Assembly: GCA_017881245.1 (NCBI GenBank)
Contig: JADGRC010000073.1
Coordinates: forward strand, 1-64,000
Direction: 5' to 3'
DNA from: Pseudomonadota bacterium
GTDB lineage: Bacteria; Myxococcota_A; Polyangia; Fen-1088
DNA length: 64,000 nucleotides
Below the pieces are notes generated by a model. It made no database searches, had not been told where the DNA came from, and saw only the letters and a program-made list of their open reading frames with translations. The translations under genes were made by a program, and so were the position numbers. Shown piece by piece: positions 8,321 through 60,035 of this stretch (position 1 is its first letter; each line of letters starts with the position of its first letter).

Positions 8321-8455
8321 ATCAGGCCTGCGTGAGGCGCGACCGGGCCAAGATCACGACCTCGCAAACCGTACCGAGCTTTTTTCTTCCCAAGCAGGGA
8401 GGTTCGGCCTATGCTGCGCGCCCCGTTCGAACCACACAACAAAGGGAGAAATCAC

Positions 8456-8647
8456 ATGAAACTTGTTCGCACCGTATTCATCGCCATGGCCGTTCTGCTC
8501 CCCGTCTCCTGGACCGTTGCCAAGGCAGCGGATCCGGCTCCGGCCGCAGAGACCGACAAGAAGGACAAGAAGAGCAAGACCGAGAAGACGGAAAAGTCGG
8601 AAAAGACCACGAAGACAGAGAAGACCGAGAAGACGGAAAAAAAGTAG
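8456..8647 (+). CDS. Small secreted Lys/Glu/Thr-repeat protein
   Basis: Upstream AGGGAG ribosome-binding site; signal peptide MKLVRTVFIAMAVLLPVSWTVAKAA then TDKKDKKSKTEKTEKSEKTTKTEKTEKTEKK. Confidence 0.65.
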   Translation: MKLVRTVFIAMAVLLPVSWTVAKAADPAPAAETDKKDKKSKTEKTEKSEKTTKTEKTEKTEKK

Positions 8648-8760
8648 TTTCACGTCATTCGCGTCTGCACCTCGTCGAGGTGATTTCCGACCCCGCGGCG
8701 CCCACAAGGGCCGTGGGGTTTGTTATTTTCGGCAACGCCGTCCAGTCTTGGGGAAAGCCC

Positions 8761-9249
8761 ATGCCCGTACGCAAGTCGCCCACTCAAAACGATTCCGACC
8801 TCGCCGACGCGGCGTTCGTGTGCGATCTGGTCAAGGTGCGGGACCTTCTGGCCGCCGGCGCCGATCCGGACGTGCGGGACGACGACGGGCGTACCCCCCT
8901 GTTCTCGGCGGTGCTTGGCGGAAGCATCGGACTTGTCGGCCTGCTGCTAGAAGCAAAGGCCGACATCAACGCCCGTGACGGTCAGGGTTTCTCGGCGCTG
9001 CACTTCGCCGCGCAAGAGGACCTGCCCGAGATGGCACGCTTGCTGATATCCAAGGGCGCCGATGTGAACGCCGTCGACGAGGACGGCGCGTCGGTCCTGT
9101 GGCGCGCGATCTTCTCGTGGCGAAATCGTCCCGACATGATCCAGATCTTGATGGCGGCCGGCGCCAAGCCGGATGTGGCCAACAAGGCGGGCGAAAGCGC
9201 CCGCGATCTGGCGACCCGCCTGGGCATCGGCGCCTTCACGGCGAACTAA
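8761..9249 (+). CDS. Ankyrin repeat protein
   Basis: Repeats ..KVRDLLAAGADPDVRDDDGRTPLFSAVLGGSIGLVGLLLEAKADINARDGQGFSALHFAAQE.. Confidence 0.9.
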   Translation: MPVRKSPTQNDSDLADAAFVCDLVKVRDLLAAGADPDVRDDDGRTPLFSAVLGGSIGLVGLLLEAKADINARDGQGFSALHFAAQEDLPEMARLLISKGADVNAVDEDGASVLWRAIFSWRNRPDMIQILMAAGAKPDVANKAGESARDLATRLGIGAFTAN

Positions 9250-9420
9250 GAGCGGCTTCGCCGCCGCAAGGGGCCTGGGAAGGCCCCCTGCGAGACCCCC
9301 TCGGAGTTGCTTGACGGCGAAGCCGGTCCAGCAAGCTGGACCTCCCCGTCCTTGGATCGGCCACTCTCTCGTCGGAGGTGAAACTTTGCCTCATTCGTCA
9401 ACATTCGATCGAGTAACGCA
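9250..9420 (+). repeat. Dispersed structured intergenic repeat, copy A
   Basis: Hairpins GCGGC-TTC-GCCGC (9252-9264), GGGGCC-N6-GGCCCC (9270-9287), GGTCCAGC-AA-GCTGGACC (9325-9342), then TTTGCCTCATTCGTCAACATTCGATCGAGTAACGCA, homologous to copies B-D. Confidence 0.75.
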
Positions 9421-9511
9421 TCCGGCGCGGCAATCACGCGCACTGTTCTGCTGCGGCGACAATCGAGCTGCGTGATCGCGGCGCTAGCCAGAACCCTGGG
9501 CCGCGACGGCG

Positions 9512-10210
9512 CTATTTGGCGGGCGCCTGCTGTTGTTGCTGCTGCTGCTGAAGTTTTTCATTGGCCGCGATCTGGACCTCGACCCGGCGGTTCTGTTTGC
9601 GCCCGTCCGCCGTGCTGTTGTCGGCAACCGGACGATCGTCCGCGTATCCACGGCCGACCATGCGTTGAGCGGCAACGCCATCCGTTCCCAGATTGGCGAT
9701 GACGGCCTCGGCGCGCTGGACCGACAGCTTCTGATTGGTCGCCTTCTTTCCCGTATTGTCGGTGTGGCCTTCAATCACCAGATCCGTGTCCGGATACTTC
9801 TTCAAAACCTGGGCAAACTGCGCGAGGTCGGTCTTCGACTGGGGTTTCAGCTCGGCCTTGTTCTTGTCGAATAGGATCGCGGAATTGAATCTGACGACCA
9901 GCTTGTCGCCCTGTCGATCGATGTTCGCTCCCTTGACCTTCTTCAGATCGGCTTCTTGCTTGTCCATGTAACGACCAATCAGCGCCCCCGACCCTGCCCC
10001 CACACCCGCGCCAATCGCACCACCAATCAATGCCCCCTTGCCACCCCCAGCCAGGGCTCCCAATCCCGCGCCCAGCAACGCGCCGCCGCCCCCTCCTATC
10101 GCGGCACCCTTCCCTTGGTTCGTCGCGCAGGCCGCTCCCGCCAGGAAGGCCGCGCACAGAACGGCTGCGGCCGCTCGATTTCCGATTCGGTTCACACTGC
10201 CATCGGTCAT
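9512..10210 (-). CDS. OmpA-family lipoprotein with glycine-zipper region
   Basis: Lipobox LAGAAC; AAIGGGGGALLGAGLGALAGGGKGALIGGAIGAGVGAGSGALIGRYMD; OmpA motif EGHTDNTGKKATNQKLSVQRAEAV; C-terminal polyQ. Confidence 0.93.
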   Translation of the reverse strand: MTDGSVNRIGNRAAAAVLCAAFLAGAACATNQGKGAAIGGGGGALLGAGLGALAGGGKGALIGGAIGAGVGAGSGALIGRYMDKQEADLKKVKGANIDRQGDKLVVRFNSAILFDKNKAELKPQSKTDLAQFAQVLKKYPDTDLVIEGHTDNTGKKATNQKLSVQRAEAVIANLGTDGVAAQRMVGRGYADDRPVADNSTADGRKQNRRVEVQIAANEKLQQQQQQQQAPAK

Positions 10211-39195: not shown

Positions 39196-41901
39196 TCACG
39201 AGGCCCACCAAAACGACAATTTGGCGAGCAGGGTGTCCACCGCGGGCGCGTTGCCGATCGCGGACAACCGCAAAGCGGCCTGCGATGATCCCAGGAATAT
39301 GTCGGGCGTCTGGGATCGACTGTAAACGATGAACAGAGTCGAGCCCAGGCGGTACTCCCAACGCAGGACCACGTTGACGTTCAACGCGGCCGACTCCGAA
39401 TCCGCGTCGGTTGGCCCGGCGGCCAACGGCGCCAAGTTGGCGGCGCGGACATGGGCGACGCTGCGAGGGGCGCCGCGAAAGTCCGTGTAGTGCTCCGCGG
39501 CAAGGAAGAGCTGGGCGAAAGTCTGCAACGACAAGCGTGGCGTGAATGTGTAGCCGATCCTCAGGGTAACGCTGGCACTTCGCCCCAGCAAACGTCCGAA
39601 GATGCGCGGGTCGGCCGGATTCTCCGAGTAATTCTCGTTCGAGTGCCAGACGAACCTCTGCTCGCCGCTGCTGTACTTGGCCTGGGGCGTGAGCTCCACG
39701 GCAAACTGCGGCAGCAAACGGAGAATCAGCGGTGCCTGCGCATCCACCGAGACTCCGTTCGCGAGGAATCGCACCTCGCTTTTCAATCCGACACCGAAAC
39801 GCGCGGTCGGATCGCTCACAATATCAATCTTGCCCCCGACGAACCGCGCGCGCTCGAGCGCCGATCCGTCCCTGATCTCCCGGTCGTCGAAATATGAAGG
39901 ACCTGCCTCAAGTGACGCTCGAAGATTCCAGAACCCCTTCGTGCGAAAGGCCAAGCCAAGTTCGACAAGCATTCCCAAATCCAGACCATCCAGGTTGCGA
40001 CGCATGGACAAGTCGAGCCGCAGGTGTCGTTCCAGCGTGAGCCGCCCGGGATCCAGATTGCGCAATTCGAGGCCCACCTTGCCCTCGTGCAGGTTCTGGC
40101 GGGCCATGTACCCCAGATCGTTGTACATCAGCCGCCTGCCCAGGCCCGTGTAGATCCCCTCCGCAAGGAAGGTGCGACCGCCTTCCTTGGCCAGTCGCAC
40201 CCAGCCGCCGATGTCGCGGTCCCCGGACCCGATGGAAGTGCCGTCCCACTGGAGCTCGGGGCGACCTTCGCGGACAGCACTTCCGACCAATTGCCCCGAG
40301 GCAACATAATCCGCCTTGGGTGATCGCCAGGTGGCATCCAGGCCACCGACGGTGGCGTCGCGAAAACAGCGGATGCCGGGTGCCACCACCTCTCCCGTGG
40401 GACAGACCCTGCCGGCGCCGGTGTCCTCGAAGCGCGTGGTGGCGGTGGCAACCACGCCGATCTGCGTCCGGGCGCCGATCTCGCGGCGCAGGCGAAACAC
40501 GTTGAACGCGGTCAGGGGTTCGACCGTGTGGCGCAGGGGACCCGTGAGCGGAAGGCCTGCCTGCCGGTCAAAATTCTGGACTTCGAAATCGTTTCGCGAG
40601 GACAGCGCCGACAACAGGCCCACCGTCCAGGCATCACGAAAACGGCCGGAGAACTTCAGCGCTCCGTAGATTGTCGCTGCTCTGGGCACCTCGACCAACC
40701 GCGCCTCGACGCCGCTGGGGTCATTCCTGAGCATTGGCTCAGACAGGGAACTGCCAAGTTGAATTCGGACGAACCGCTGCCCGTCGAGTGTCGGCAAAGG
40801 CGGCGAACTTCCGATGCGGCGGGAGTAAAGGACGCCAAGCGGCGTCGCGAAAAGGTCCGCGCCCTCCAGAAAGAGTGGCCGCTTCTCTGGATATTGAATC
40901 TCGTAGTTGTTCAGATTTAGGATCAGTTGGTCGGCCTCGACCTGCGCGAAATCCGGGTTGATGGCGGCATCTAGCGTCAGGGACTGGGTCACGTGGAGCT
41001 TCAAATCGAGGCCAGCCGAGGCGGCCGCGTCGATTCCGTGATTGACAAGGGACGCGTCCGCGGATTGGCGGCGCACTTCCCCGAGGACGAATGGCCGCAA
41101 CTCGACGGTGCCACCGGGCGCCAGGTGCCGCAAATCCGTGAGGCGCCCGAAAAATGGAATCGGCGTCGCCGCATCGCGGGGGATATACGGCCAATCGTCT
41201 TTTTCTTGCGAGACGCCAATGAATCGAGACGCCCAGAGTCCCCAGTCTTGGACCGGCAGGCCAGGCGTGAAACGCAGGACGCGAAAGGGAATGCGCAACT
41301 CCGCCGACCAGCCCCGAGGCGTCAGGGCCGTCCGCGCTTCCCAGTTTTCGTCCCACTCCAGGCCCCATGTGGTGCCATCGTGCAGGATGCCGTCGGATAG
41401 GACCCCTTTGACGTTCACCGCGAAGACGTACGCGGTACGGGCGTCTCGGCGGCTGTCGATCTCCACCCACACCCAGTCACTTTCCGAATCCTCGTCTCGG
41501 CGGGTCAGGCGACCGACGACGGGGGTCCGCACCTGATCGCAATCGAACCCAAAATAGACGGCCTCGTCGTCGTAGACGACCCGCAAGGTCGTGTGCTCCG
41601 ACGGAGGCTTTCCGTCGTAGGGCACCTGCTGGGTGAAATCCGAAGTGCCCGGAGACGAGGCCCACGCCGGATCGTCCAACCGGCCGTCCAGCACGGGTGG
41701 CGACGAAACGCGAACCGCGCCTAGCCTGGGCAAGATCTCCGAAGGGGCGCGCAGAGGGGTTTCAGGGCGGGCCGCCCTCGGCGCCGCGTGAAGGCTACCG
41801 GACGCGACGGGCGTTGATGCCGCACCCTCGGCATTGACGCGGCCTGACTGGCACGCGATCGCGATCAACAGTGCGGCAGCCACCCATGAGCGCAAGGTCA
41901 C
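39196..41901 (-). CDS. DUF5916-like protein with N-terminal CBM9-like domain
   Basis: PPVLDGRLDDPAWASSPGTSDFTQQVPYDGKPPSEHTTLRVVYDDEAVYFGFDCDQ...NPDFAQVEADQLILNLNNYEIQYPEKRPLFLEGADLF. Confidence 0.92.
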   Translation of the reverse strand: MTLRSWVAAALLIAIACQSGRVNAEGAASTPVASGSLHAAPRAARPETPLRAPSEILPRLGAVRVSSPPVLDGRLDDPAWASSPGTSDFTQQVPYDGKPPSEHTTLRVVYDDEAVYFGFDCDQVRTPVVGRLTRRDEDSESDWVWVEIDSRRDARTAYVFAVNVKGVLSDGILHDGTTWGLEWDENWEARTALTPRGWSAELRIPFRVLRFTPGLPVQDWGLWASRFIGVSQEKDDWPYIPRDAATPIPFFGRLTDLRHLAPGGTVELRPFVLGEVRRQSADASLVNHGIDAAASAGLDLKLHVTQSLTLDAAINPDFAQVEADQLILNLNNYEIQYPEKRPLFLEGADLFATPLGVLYSRRIGSSPPLPTLDGQRFVRIQLGSSLSEPMLRNDPSGVEARLVEVPRAATIYGALKFSGRFRDAWTVGLLSALSSRNDFEVQNFDRQAGLPLTGPLRHTVEPLTAFNVFRLRREIGARTQIGVVATATTRFEDTGAGRVCPTGEVVAPGIRCFRDATVGGLDATWRSPKADYVASGQLVGSAVREGRPELQWDGTSIGSGDRDIGGWVRLAKEGGRTFLAEGIYTGLGRRLMYNDLGYMARQNLHEGKVGLELRNLDPGRLTLERHLRLDLSMRRNLDGLDLGMLVELGLAFRTKGFWNLRASLEAGPSYFDDREIRDGSALERARFVGGKIDIVSDPTARFGVGLKSEVRFLANGVSVDAQAPLILRLLPQFAVELTPQAKYSSGEQRFVWHSNENYSENPADPRIFGRLLGRSASVTLRIGYTFTPRLSLQTFAQLFLAAEHYTDFRGAPRSVAHVRAANLAPLAAGPTDADSESAALNVNVVLRWEYRLGSTLFIVYSRSQTPDIFLGSSQAALRLSAIGNAPAVDTLLAKLSFWWAS

Positions 41902-50042: not shown

Positions 50043-50137
50043 CGGGTCCCTTAACTACCAGAATATGGCCGCAAGTGCAGAGGAGCTGTATGATGGGGGG
50101 TCTTTGGACGCAACCAAAATGCCCCGCATGCCACCTA

Positions 50138-50313
50138 ACGCGCCTTCGGCGCTCGCGGGAAGGGGCGGACCCCTCCCCGCGGACCCCTCCCGACGGATCC
50201 CTAAGCCGTCGATCCCGGCGCAGCTAAGCTGCGCCTCCCGGTGCTTGGAAAAGCTCTGCGATCGCCATTCGGAAAAGTTGCCTCATTTGCTCAGATTTCG
50301 ATCGGGTAAGGCA
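50138..50313 (+). repeat. Dispersed structured intergenic repeat, copy B
   Basis: GCGCC-TTC-GGCGC (50140-50152), AGGGG-CGGA-CCCCT (50161-50174), GGCGCAGC-TAA-GCTGCGCC (50217-50235), GTGCTTGGAAAAGC...CGGAAAAGTTGCCTCATT...GTAAGGCA. Confidence 0.85.
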
Positions 50314-50343
50314 CCTGTTGCTGCCCTATCGCGGAAGGACCCT

Positions 50344-53281: not shown

Positions 53282-54073
53282 ATGAGTACGTCATTCCCGC
53301 TCGACGGAATGCGTGTCCGCTTCGCCGGCGACACGAACGTCGGCATGAAGCGCGCGCACAACGAGGATTCGTTGTACTTGCCAGAGTTCGAGCGGTTGGC
53401 CATCGTCGCCGACGGCATGGGTGGACACGCATCGGGCGAGGTGGCCAGCAAGCTGGCGGTTGAAACGATCGCGGGTTTCTTCAGGACCACCCAAGACGAG
53501 CAGCAGTTGACGTGGCCGTTCAAGATGGACCGTGGGCACAGATACGACGTCAACCGCCTCATCACGGCCATCAAACTGGCGAACCTGAAAATCCACGAAC
53601 AAGCGCAGCGCGACCCCAATTGCCACGGCATGGGCACGACCGTGATCTCGACGTTGTTTCTGGATGATGCCCTGATAGTCGGCCACGTGGGGGACAGCCG
53701 CCTCTACCGCCGGCGCGATGGTGCGTTCGAACAGCTGACCGAGGATCACTCGCTCCTGAACGACTACATCAAGATGAAACATTTAACCCCCGCGGAAATC
53801 GCCGCGTTCCCGCACAAGAACGTGATTGTCCGGGCGCTCGGAATGCGCGACACCGTCCAGGTGGACGTCTACGTGGACACGCCTCGAATGGGCGACGTGT
53901 ACGTACTGTGCTCCGACGGGCTGTCCGGCATGGTGTCCGACGAGCAGATCGCCGACATCGCCGGCACCGACAGAGATCTAGACAGCATCTGTGAGGAACT
54001 GATCAGCCTAGCGAACCGCAACGGGGGCCTCGACAACGTGACCGTCGTGGCTGCCCGCATCGAGAATGCCTGA
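53282..54073 (+). CDS. PP2C-family Ser/Thr phosphatase
   Basis: FAGDTNVGMKRAHNEDSLYLPEFERLAIVADGMGGHASGEVASKLAVE...GTTVISTLFLDDALIVGHVGDSRLYRRRDG...DVYVLCSDGLSGMVSDEQIADI. Confidence 0.97.
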   Translation: MSTSFPLDGMRVRFAGDTNVGMKRAHNEDSLYLPEFERLAIVADGMGGHASGEVASKLAVETIAGFFRTTQDEQQLTWPFKMDRGHRYDVNRLITAIKLANLKIHEQAQRDPNCHGMGTTVISTLFLDDALIVGHVGDSRLYRRRDGAFEQLTEDHSLLNDYIKMKHLTPAEIAAFPHKNVIVRALGMRDTVQVDVYVDTPRMGDVYVLCSDGLSGMVSDEQIADIAGTDRDLDSICEELISLANRNGGLDNVTVVAARIENA

Positions 54074-54075
54074 TC

Positions 54076-54238
54076 ACGCGCCTTCGGCGCTTCGCGGGAA
54101 GGGGCGGACCCCTCCCGACGGATCCCTAAGCCGTCGATCCCGGCGCAGCAAAGCTGCGCCTCTGGGTGCTTGAAAAGCTACCGCGATCGCCATCCGGAAA
54201 CTTGCCTCATTCGTTTACATTTTCGTCCGGGTAAGGCA
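54076..54238 (+). repeat. Dispersed structured intergenic repeat, copy C
   Basis: Starts 3 nt after the PP2C stop: GCGCC-TTC-GGCGC (54078-54090), AGGGG-CGGA-CCCCT, GGCGCAGC-AAA-GCTGCGCC (54142-54160), GTGCTTGAAAAGC...CCGGAAACTTGCCTCATT...GTAAGGCA. Confidence 0.85.
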
Positions 54239-54398
54239 TCTGGAACGCCTGTGTCACGGCTTACCTCGAGAATGCCTCCAAGAAGTGCGACTACCCGTGA
54301 TCACACGGGCACGGAAATCCTAGTAAATCCTCGCGTCGAATCTGGAGGCACACCGAAAGGCCCGCGGTTTTCAGCGCCTCCATTCGGAAGCCCGTACA

Positions 54399-58717: not shown

Positions 58718-58910
58718 CGCTAAATAAGGCAACTTCTCCGAAGGCCGATCATAAGGCTTTTCCAAGCATCGGGAGGCGTGGCAAAGCCGCACCCCACGCA
58801 GGAAGACCTGCCTGGGGACCCCGCGCCACGCCGGCGTTGACGGCCTGCGGGGGAGCACATGAGGGGGACACCCGGGGGGACACCCCCTCATGGCGGCGAA
58901 GCCGCTCTGG
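58718..58910 (-). repeat. Dispersed structured intergenic repeat, copy D
   Basis: On minus strand: GCGGC-TTC-GCCGC (58905-58893), ATGAGGGGG...CCCCCTCAT, GGTGCGGC-TTT-GCCACGCC (58793-58775), ATGCTTGGAAAAGCC...TTCGGAGAAGTTGCCTTATT. Confidence 0.75.
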
Positions 58911-58928: not shown

Positions 58929-60035
58929 TCAGCCGCGGGGCGGAGTTGCTCCAACCCGGTGACCGCCAACTTCGGGATGCTCTGCCAGGGAACCGGGGGC
59001 ACGACCGGCGGCCAGGCGGAACCGGGGGCTGCCCGGCCCACCCCACGGTTTGTCGTCCACGAGCCCGGTTCCGTAGCGCTGATGCGTCGTTTGATAACGG
59101 CCCGCCACGACCACGACCCTGTCCGGATACAGATACAGGGCGCCCACCAACCCGACCGCCTCGGCGGGCATCGCGTACGACTGATCTTCGTGCAGCACGG
59201 CGGCGCGCGGTCCAACGACGATGGGAACACGAAGGGCCAAGGCCTCAGGCGTGGTTTTCAACGGACGCAGGCGCTGCCGCTCCTCGGCCAACAAAACAGC
59301 AGGGGTTTGGTTATCGAGCTGGGCACCCTCCACGGAAACGGTGTTGTTGGTTTTCGCGACCCAGTCCTTAAGTTGGCGCTCGAGATCGACTTCGCCCGCA
59401 AAAGAGCGGTCTTTGAAGAAGCTGTTCTTGACCCAGTTTCCAAGGTTGGTCCCGAATCCGCGATCCGCGCCGCGGCGTGCCCGCACTTCCACCCCCAGGC
59501 CAAGTTGGATGGCCGCGTACGCGAAGGACGGATCCCATTCAAGGACCTGTCCATCCGCATCGGTTCTGGTGGCGACGGGCTTGGACCTATCAAAAGCCGC
59601 CAGCAGAGCAACGCCACCCATCAGTTCATAGTGACGGACCAACGACCGAACCAGAGTCTCGACGCCCTGGTCCGGCATCAGGGACACGTGGGAAAACCGT
59701 GAGTATTCCAGGCGCGAGGCCAGAAATGCGAGGGACCGGGTTTGCCCATCCATGAAACGGACATCGACCTGGCCAAGGCCATGCCGTATGACTTCGCCGG
59801 GAATTTTGTCCTGGTGACCAAGCGGCCGACTCCGCCGAGGTCTCAAACTGGCGATCACCGCGTAAAGAGCGCTTTTGCCGCCATCGTAGCCGGCGGCCTT
59901 TGCCCCGCGAACGATCTCGAGGGATTTCATCTTGGGGTTGGCGAGCAGCAGGTCCACCACAAAAGACCGAAATGGCTGCGCCTTTGAAGGCCTGCCAACC
60001 CCCCGACCTGAGCTACGCCCTATCTGGGATTCCAT
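58929..60035 (-). mobile_element. IS21-family IstA-like transposase, solitary and probably inactive
   Basis: HTH LEIVRGAKAAGYDGGKSALYAVIASLRP; rve-like core SRFSHVSLMPDQGVETLVRSLVRHYELMGGVALLAAFDRSKPVAT; NWVKNSFFKDRSFAGEVDLERQLKDWVAKTNN; LAEERQRLRPL; AMPAEAVGLVGALYLYPDRVVVVAGR. Confidence 0.83.

Follow-up and report, generated by a model that had tools for sequence, protein, structure and literature searches.

A dispersed three-hairpin repeat placed behind stop codons in a Myxococcota genome

Behind many unrelated genes of this genome is a dispersed element of ~165–210 nt whose hairpins stay paired while their letters change. We take it, with a probability of roughly 0.6, to be a palindromic repeat similar in kind to REP and YPAL elements: lineage-specific, present in many copies and non-autonomous. 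Its hairpins would have been needed in its spread, and it would then form the 3′ end of mRNA. The stretch of 64,000 nucleotides analysed here, referred to as the window, comes from a MAG of an uncultured myxobacterium and holds copies A to D (Table 1).

Anatomy and distribution of the element

The element is composed of CTAR, hairpins 1 and 2, a linker, hairpin 3, an unstructured tail and TAAGGCAT-CTAG, with the three strong hairpins on one element strand; from hairpin 1 to the end of TAAGGCAT it measures 135–211 nt in nearly all copies having both ends. Ahead of the base preceding hairpin 1 is CTAG (20 copies), CTAA (16), GTAA (5) or GTAG (1), and following TAAGGCAT is most often CTAG or CTGG. 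Left and right tetranucleotides do not vary together from copy to copy, matching in only about five copies, and a clean target-site duplication was not found. Of the two marks of a MITE, terminal inverted repeats and a target-site duplication, type I copies have ends, CTAGA...TCTAG, that form a short inverted repeat. The right end is without a strong hairpin (z near 0), and the tail was rejected as a structured RNA, its fold being no better than that of shuffled sequences.

Table 1 Coordinates of the element copies in the window
Feature	Position	Strand	Description
Copy A, subfamily I, whole element	9246–9421	+	CTAA, hairpin 1, hairpin 2, linker, hairpin 3, tail to ...TAACGCAT
Copy A hairpin 1	9252–9264	+	GCGGC-TTC-GCCGC
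Copy A hairpin 2	9265–9292	+	CGCAAGGGGCCT-GGGA-AGGCCCCCTGCG, one A.C mismatch
Copy A hairpin 3	9325–9342	+	GGTCCAGC-AA-GCTGGACC
Copy A tail	9343–9421	+	Sequence kept among copies; folding no better than shuffles (z = −0.02)
Copy B, subfamily II	50135–50314	+	CTAAC, hairpin 1 (50140–50152), hairpin 2 (50154–50181), hairpin 3 (50217–50235), tail
Copy C, subfamily II	54074–54239	+	Hairpin 1 (54078–54090), hairpin 3 (54142–54160)
Copy D, subfamily IV	58755–58908	−	Hairpin 1 (58905–58893), hairpin 2 with insert (58892–58858)
Copy D hairpin 3	58775–58832	−	Arms GGCGTGGC (58832–58825) and GCCACGCC (58782–58775), 8/8 paired

The TAA within the CTAA of copy A is the stop codon of an ankyrin-repeat gene (8332–9249, identified by Pfam). 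Copy C starts directly 3′ of the TGA (54071–54073) of a PP2C phosphatase gene, copy D lies 26 nt past the TGA of the gene at 60035–58929, and copy B occupies a CTAA between divergent genes, away from any stop codon. Close to the right flank of copy A is a run of CTG/TTG triplets (9520–9560), encoding the glutamine-rich C-terminus of an OmpA-family protein (10210–9512, minus strand). Elsewhere in the window, ARAGORN places a tRNA-Arg(ccg) at 39754–39846 (minus strand), inside a long open reading frame (41901–39196, minus strand); this is probably a false call, because the Rfam scan gives no tRNA there.

Hairpin 3 was the subject of an earlier note, which read compensatory base changes in it across the four copies and whose strings for A, B and C are exact; the pattern has four matches in the window, against a chance expectation of 0.22. 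For copy D the wrong arm was paired: the string GGTGCGGCTTTGCCACGCC is present at 58793–58775 (minus strand), but its 5′ half is part of an insert, so that the GU pair and the mismatch ascribed to this copy are artefacts. The arms of copy D enclose a nested 42-nt hairpin insert, and the segment that they span folds at −43.5 kcal/mol (z = −4.6). The covariance alignment groups this copy with two others carrying GGCGTGGC/GCCACGCC, and a comparable insert, CCGGGGTCCTCACGCGATTCCTATCGCGTGGGGTGGAGC, is found within hairpin 3 in six or more copies of type I.

A covariance model of hairpins 1–3, run on the genome itself (6.17 Mb, 534 contigs), scores 95 copies at E ≤ 0.01, most of them with E below 1e-6; this number is a lower bound, because only 150 candidates were scored. 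Copies are 90–96% identical across many unrelated loci, and their flanks are unrelated outside the shared ends. They fall mainly into subfamily I (copy A), subfamily II (copies B and C, with an extra hairpin GACGG/CCGTC, at 50192–50210 in copy B), subfamily III (hairpin 2 being GGGAGGGCT-AGCCCTCCC), subfamily IV (copy D, hairpin 2 containing ATGAGGGGG) and divergent forms. Subfamily I is also found as head-to-tail units of ~75–81 nt that end within the 5′ arm of hairpin 3; tandem units are present, and the CTAG that belongs to a type II right end is where a type I left end starts.

With the same model, seven matches were found in a genome of the same genus (G001) and two to four in other genera. 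A broader model gave 13 matches in G005, from another genus of the family, four in G001, two in G008 and one in G011, with none in the other nine relatives searched. The exact hairpin 2 pattern occurs on one contig of a genome contig collection, belonging to the Myxococcales MAG fen_1088. A search of a plasmid collection gave no match, an Rfam scan of the window at gathering score gave no family, and literature searches for such repeats in Myxococcales or Myxococcota found none in the library searched.

Placement behind stop codons

Reading frames to the left of each copy were found by a codon-usage score, using a home-made gene caller trained on the host genes of these loci, so that exact counts could shift. 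A sense stop codon lies at most 60 nt before hairpin 1 in 57 of 82 evaluable copies, and exactly 4 nt before it in 34. Of the rest, four (−76 to −88) are later units in tandem arrays, 13 have on their left side a gene in antisense orientation, five are without a clear gene, and only three are read into by a gene. The downstream neighbour is convergent in 32 of 56 copies, compared with 16 of 52 gene ends (31%) in the window.

Hosts of the element are ordinary, unrelated genes, including those for aspartate-semialdehyde dehydrogenase (asd), SecF, sigma factors, L19 (rplS) and an ABC ATPase. The end of the host asd is within one codon of that of its orthologues in relatives lacking the element, several of which run one codon further. 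The hosts encoding sigma factors are of full length. Supply of the stop by the element in random frames was rejected, because about two-thirds of gene-end insertions would then be read into and only the three mentioned above are. In a different genome of the same family (G009), a G+C-rich hairpin cluster of its own extends from the TAG of rplS onward, so that palindromes at gene ends, with no relation to this element, may be frequent in the family.

This placement bears on an alternative to which we give a minor but real chance, namely that the hairpins are DNA-level mobility signals only and the element a decayed, non-autonomous derivative of IS200/IS605 or RAYT type, having no function after insertion. 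Its position at stops would then reflect a CTAR target together with selection removing harmful insertions. Such an origin would suit the terminal anatomy (a tetranucleotide beside the left hairpin, and TAAGGCAT-CTAG at the other end), the site of copy B and a covariation that, as described below, lies at subfamily level with weak constraint on single copies. Against it, stops are used far above other noncoding CTAR sites: the NTAR before hairpin 1 is a sense stop codon in 32 of 44 copies, whereas among the noncoding sites of the window stops account for 9 of 52 with CTAR and 19 of 182 with NTAR. Some copies adjoin TGA stops, and copies in G005 are placed likewise without a CTAR rule, a sense stop being followed by a copy at 4–56 nt in 9 of the 11 examined. 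Nor was an intact Y1 transposase found in the own genome or in G001.

Pairing kept through sequence change

An initial alignment of 37 copies had 94.4% of its stem cells paired. After realignment of 90 copies (E ≤ 0.001), 93.5% are paired, compared with 80.6% for shuffled and at most 49.3% for slid partners, in an alignment that is biased towards the structure, having been fitted to it. Both sides have changed at 20 of 25 stem pairs, and the covariation score is 0.311 (0.123 when shuffled, at most 0.111 when slid). Under a tree-aware null for the G-test, in which inferred substitutions are redistributed per branch (our own script, not R-scape), 6 of 6,328 column pairs reach E ≤ 0.05. Four of these are stem pairs: hairpin 1 G-C/C-G, hairpin 2 C-G/G-C, hairpin 3 C-G/G-C and hairpin 3 A-T/G-C. 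The earlier note had staked its reading on covariation persisting once more copies were aligned, and with 90 copies it does.

Parsimony places ~14–15 pair-to-pair double changes in hairpin 1, ~17–21 in hairpin 2 and ~13–16 in hairpin 3. The coordinated switch of hairpin 1 from GCGGC/GCCGC to GCGCC/GGCGC, also pointed out from the window copies, extends genome-wide (41 and 26 copies, respectively) with all five pairs kept. Hairpin 3 occurs with the arms GGTCCAGC, GGTGCGGC, GGCGCAGC, GGCGCGGC, GGCGTGGC, GGTCCGGC and GGCCCGGC, every one of them facing an exactly complementary arm, and in G005 with GGCCGAGC/GCTCGGCC, GGCCGGGC/GCCCGGCC and GCGCGGGC/GCCCGCGC.

Within subfamilies, stems carry proportionally fewer private changes (31 of 2,493, or 0.0124) than other positions (61 of 2,950, or 0.0207), a rate of 0.60× (p = 0.02); in subfamily I, only 7 of 17 private stem changes leave a standard pair. 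Individual copies are thus at most weakly constrained. The idea of selection on structure, in RNA or cruciform DNA, drawn from the four window copies, holds in that pairing is kept as letters vary, and is weakened in that the changes mostly separate subfamilies. Because they do so, and because private changes are scarcely constrained, the structure appears to have been kept mainly while the subfamilies arose, which suits a structure needed during spread of the element.

Perfect arms of varied sequence closed by loops of 2–3 nt are good substrates for template switching, and hairpins 1 and 3 have this form. The compensatory changes could in principle stem from quasi-palindrome correction, one arm being copied onto the other, rather than from selection; we consider this improbable, given the lower rate of private substitutions in stems and the retention of the flanks and loop of hairpin 3 while its arms change.

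Relation to known repeats and a proposed role

REPs are single palindromes of 20–40 bp, often arranged as inverted dimers, tagged by GTAG and linked to RAYTs; they lie within 20 bp of the 3′ ends of open reading frames, often supplying the TAG stop of the flanking frame, and Myxococcota are not mentioned in that account (Di Nocera et al. 2013, PMC3733652). Shared with the GTAG-tagged REPs are the many dispersed palindromes, an unpaired end tetranucleotide that often provides the TAG stop of the flanking frame, and a high copy number close behind coding regions, both unidirectional and convergent. The present element differs in its length, its three hairpins and tail, the CTAG or CTAA in front in place of GTAG/CGTC, and, in the assemblies searched, the lack of an intact RAYT gene flanked by copies. 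As the tag, length and RAYT features of REPs are not those found here, we regard the element as a new form of palindromic 3′-end repeat and not as a REP proper.

The YPAL (RU-2) element of Yersinia is a 168-bp mobile repeat with internal inverted repeats that is not A+T rich and makes target-site duplications of 3–26 bp (PMC2229807). The present element is of comparable length, has internal inverted repeats and is not A+T rich, but shows no clear target-site duplication. Insertion close behind stop codons is found here, and De Gregorio in 2006 reportedly saw YPAL closely behind stop codons, with higher transcript levels.

Derivatives of IS200/IS605 resemble the element in having a tetranucleotide beside a subterminal hairpin and a strand-specific orientation, but here the ends were not seen on any Y1 transposase gene and the right end lacks a strong hairpin. 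No intact Y1 or RAYT transposase was detected in the element's own genome or in G001, both of which are fragmentary assemblies. Of these two, the own genome alone has a PF01797 fragment covering 34 of 121 profile positions (L055, 1400–1700, on contig C482), a possible remnant of a lost RAYT. Intact RAYTs were found in other families. In another family of the same class, Y1 transposases are numerous (12 matches in genome G024; for example, L196, L201 and L204) and come in two or more size classes (~150–205 and 310–325 amino acids), a possible REP/RAYT system.

It is very unlikely that duplication has spread the copies as transcription terminators, kept for termination only. A terminator function would fit their alignment with the gene whose stop they follow and their enrichment at convergent gene ends, but hairpin 3 is followed by CTCCCCGTCC rather than a T-run, and a scan for terminators (a G+C-rich hairpin with a T-run) finds none there, so that hairpin 3 is not an ordinary intrinsic terminator. 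Equally at odds with termination are the conserved, unstructured 75-nt tail and the 90–96% identity among so many unrelated loci.

There is a negligible chance that the elements are recombination sites like the attC of integrons, following cassette genes. The folded, stop-adjacent form, the TAAC left of types II and III and an integron-integrase-like reading frame in the genome would suggest it. Against it, the two ends do not form the boxes R″ (RYYYAAC) and R′ (GTTRRRY), which are complementary in attC (the right end is GTAAGGCAT, with GTAAGGC, and the left of type I is CTAGA), and copies occur one by one, dispersed among housekeeping genes that they follow (asd, rplS, sigma factors). The integrase-like gene (L236, 3671–4608, on contig C492) matches TIGR02249 in two frames (237 and 207 bits), and is therefore broken by a frameshift or an assembly error; the 3.6 kb beside it hold no clear attC array.

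In the reading that we favour, spread of the palindromic repeat would have required its hairpins, most probably because a mobilising enzyme, HUH/Y1-like and since lost or unrecognised, acted on them as single strands. After insertion, the repeat would be transcribed as the 3′ end of the gene upstream of it; there its hairpins may hold up 3′ exonucleases or mark where the transcript ends. We propose that copies at stop codons and transcription-unit ends are retained because the element forms such an end, with a role for its hairpins. The mobility machinery might even sense translation-stop regions (any stop codon, on the sense strand) beyond CTAR, so moving a portable 3′-end module from gene to gene, an idea that we hold to be unlikely.

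REP-like repeats with placement at gene ends are known mainly from other phyla. The version in this Myxococcota family is larger, has several hairpins and is tied to stop codons strand-specifically and to the exact base, with no RAYT in sight, and it lets one ask whether something other than a RAYT can spread such repeats. The same 3′-end module behind many unrelated genes provides natural replicates for distinguishing repeats that shape mRNA ends from those that are merely tolerated there.
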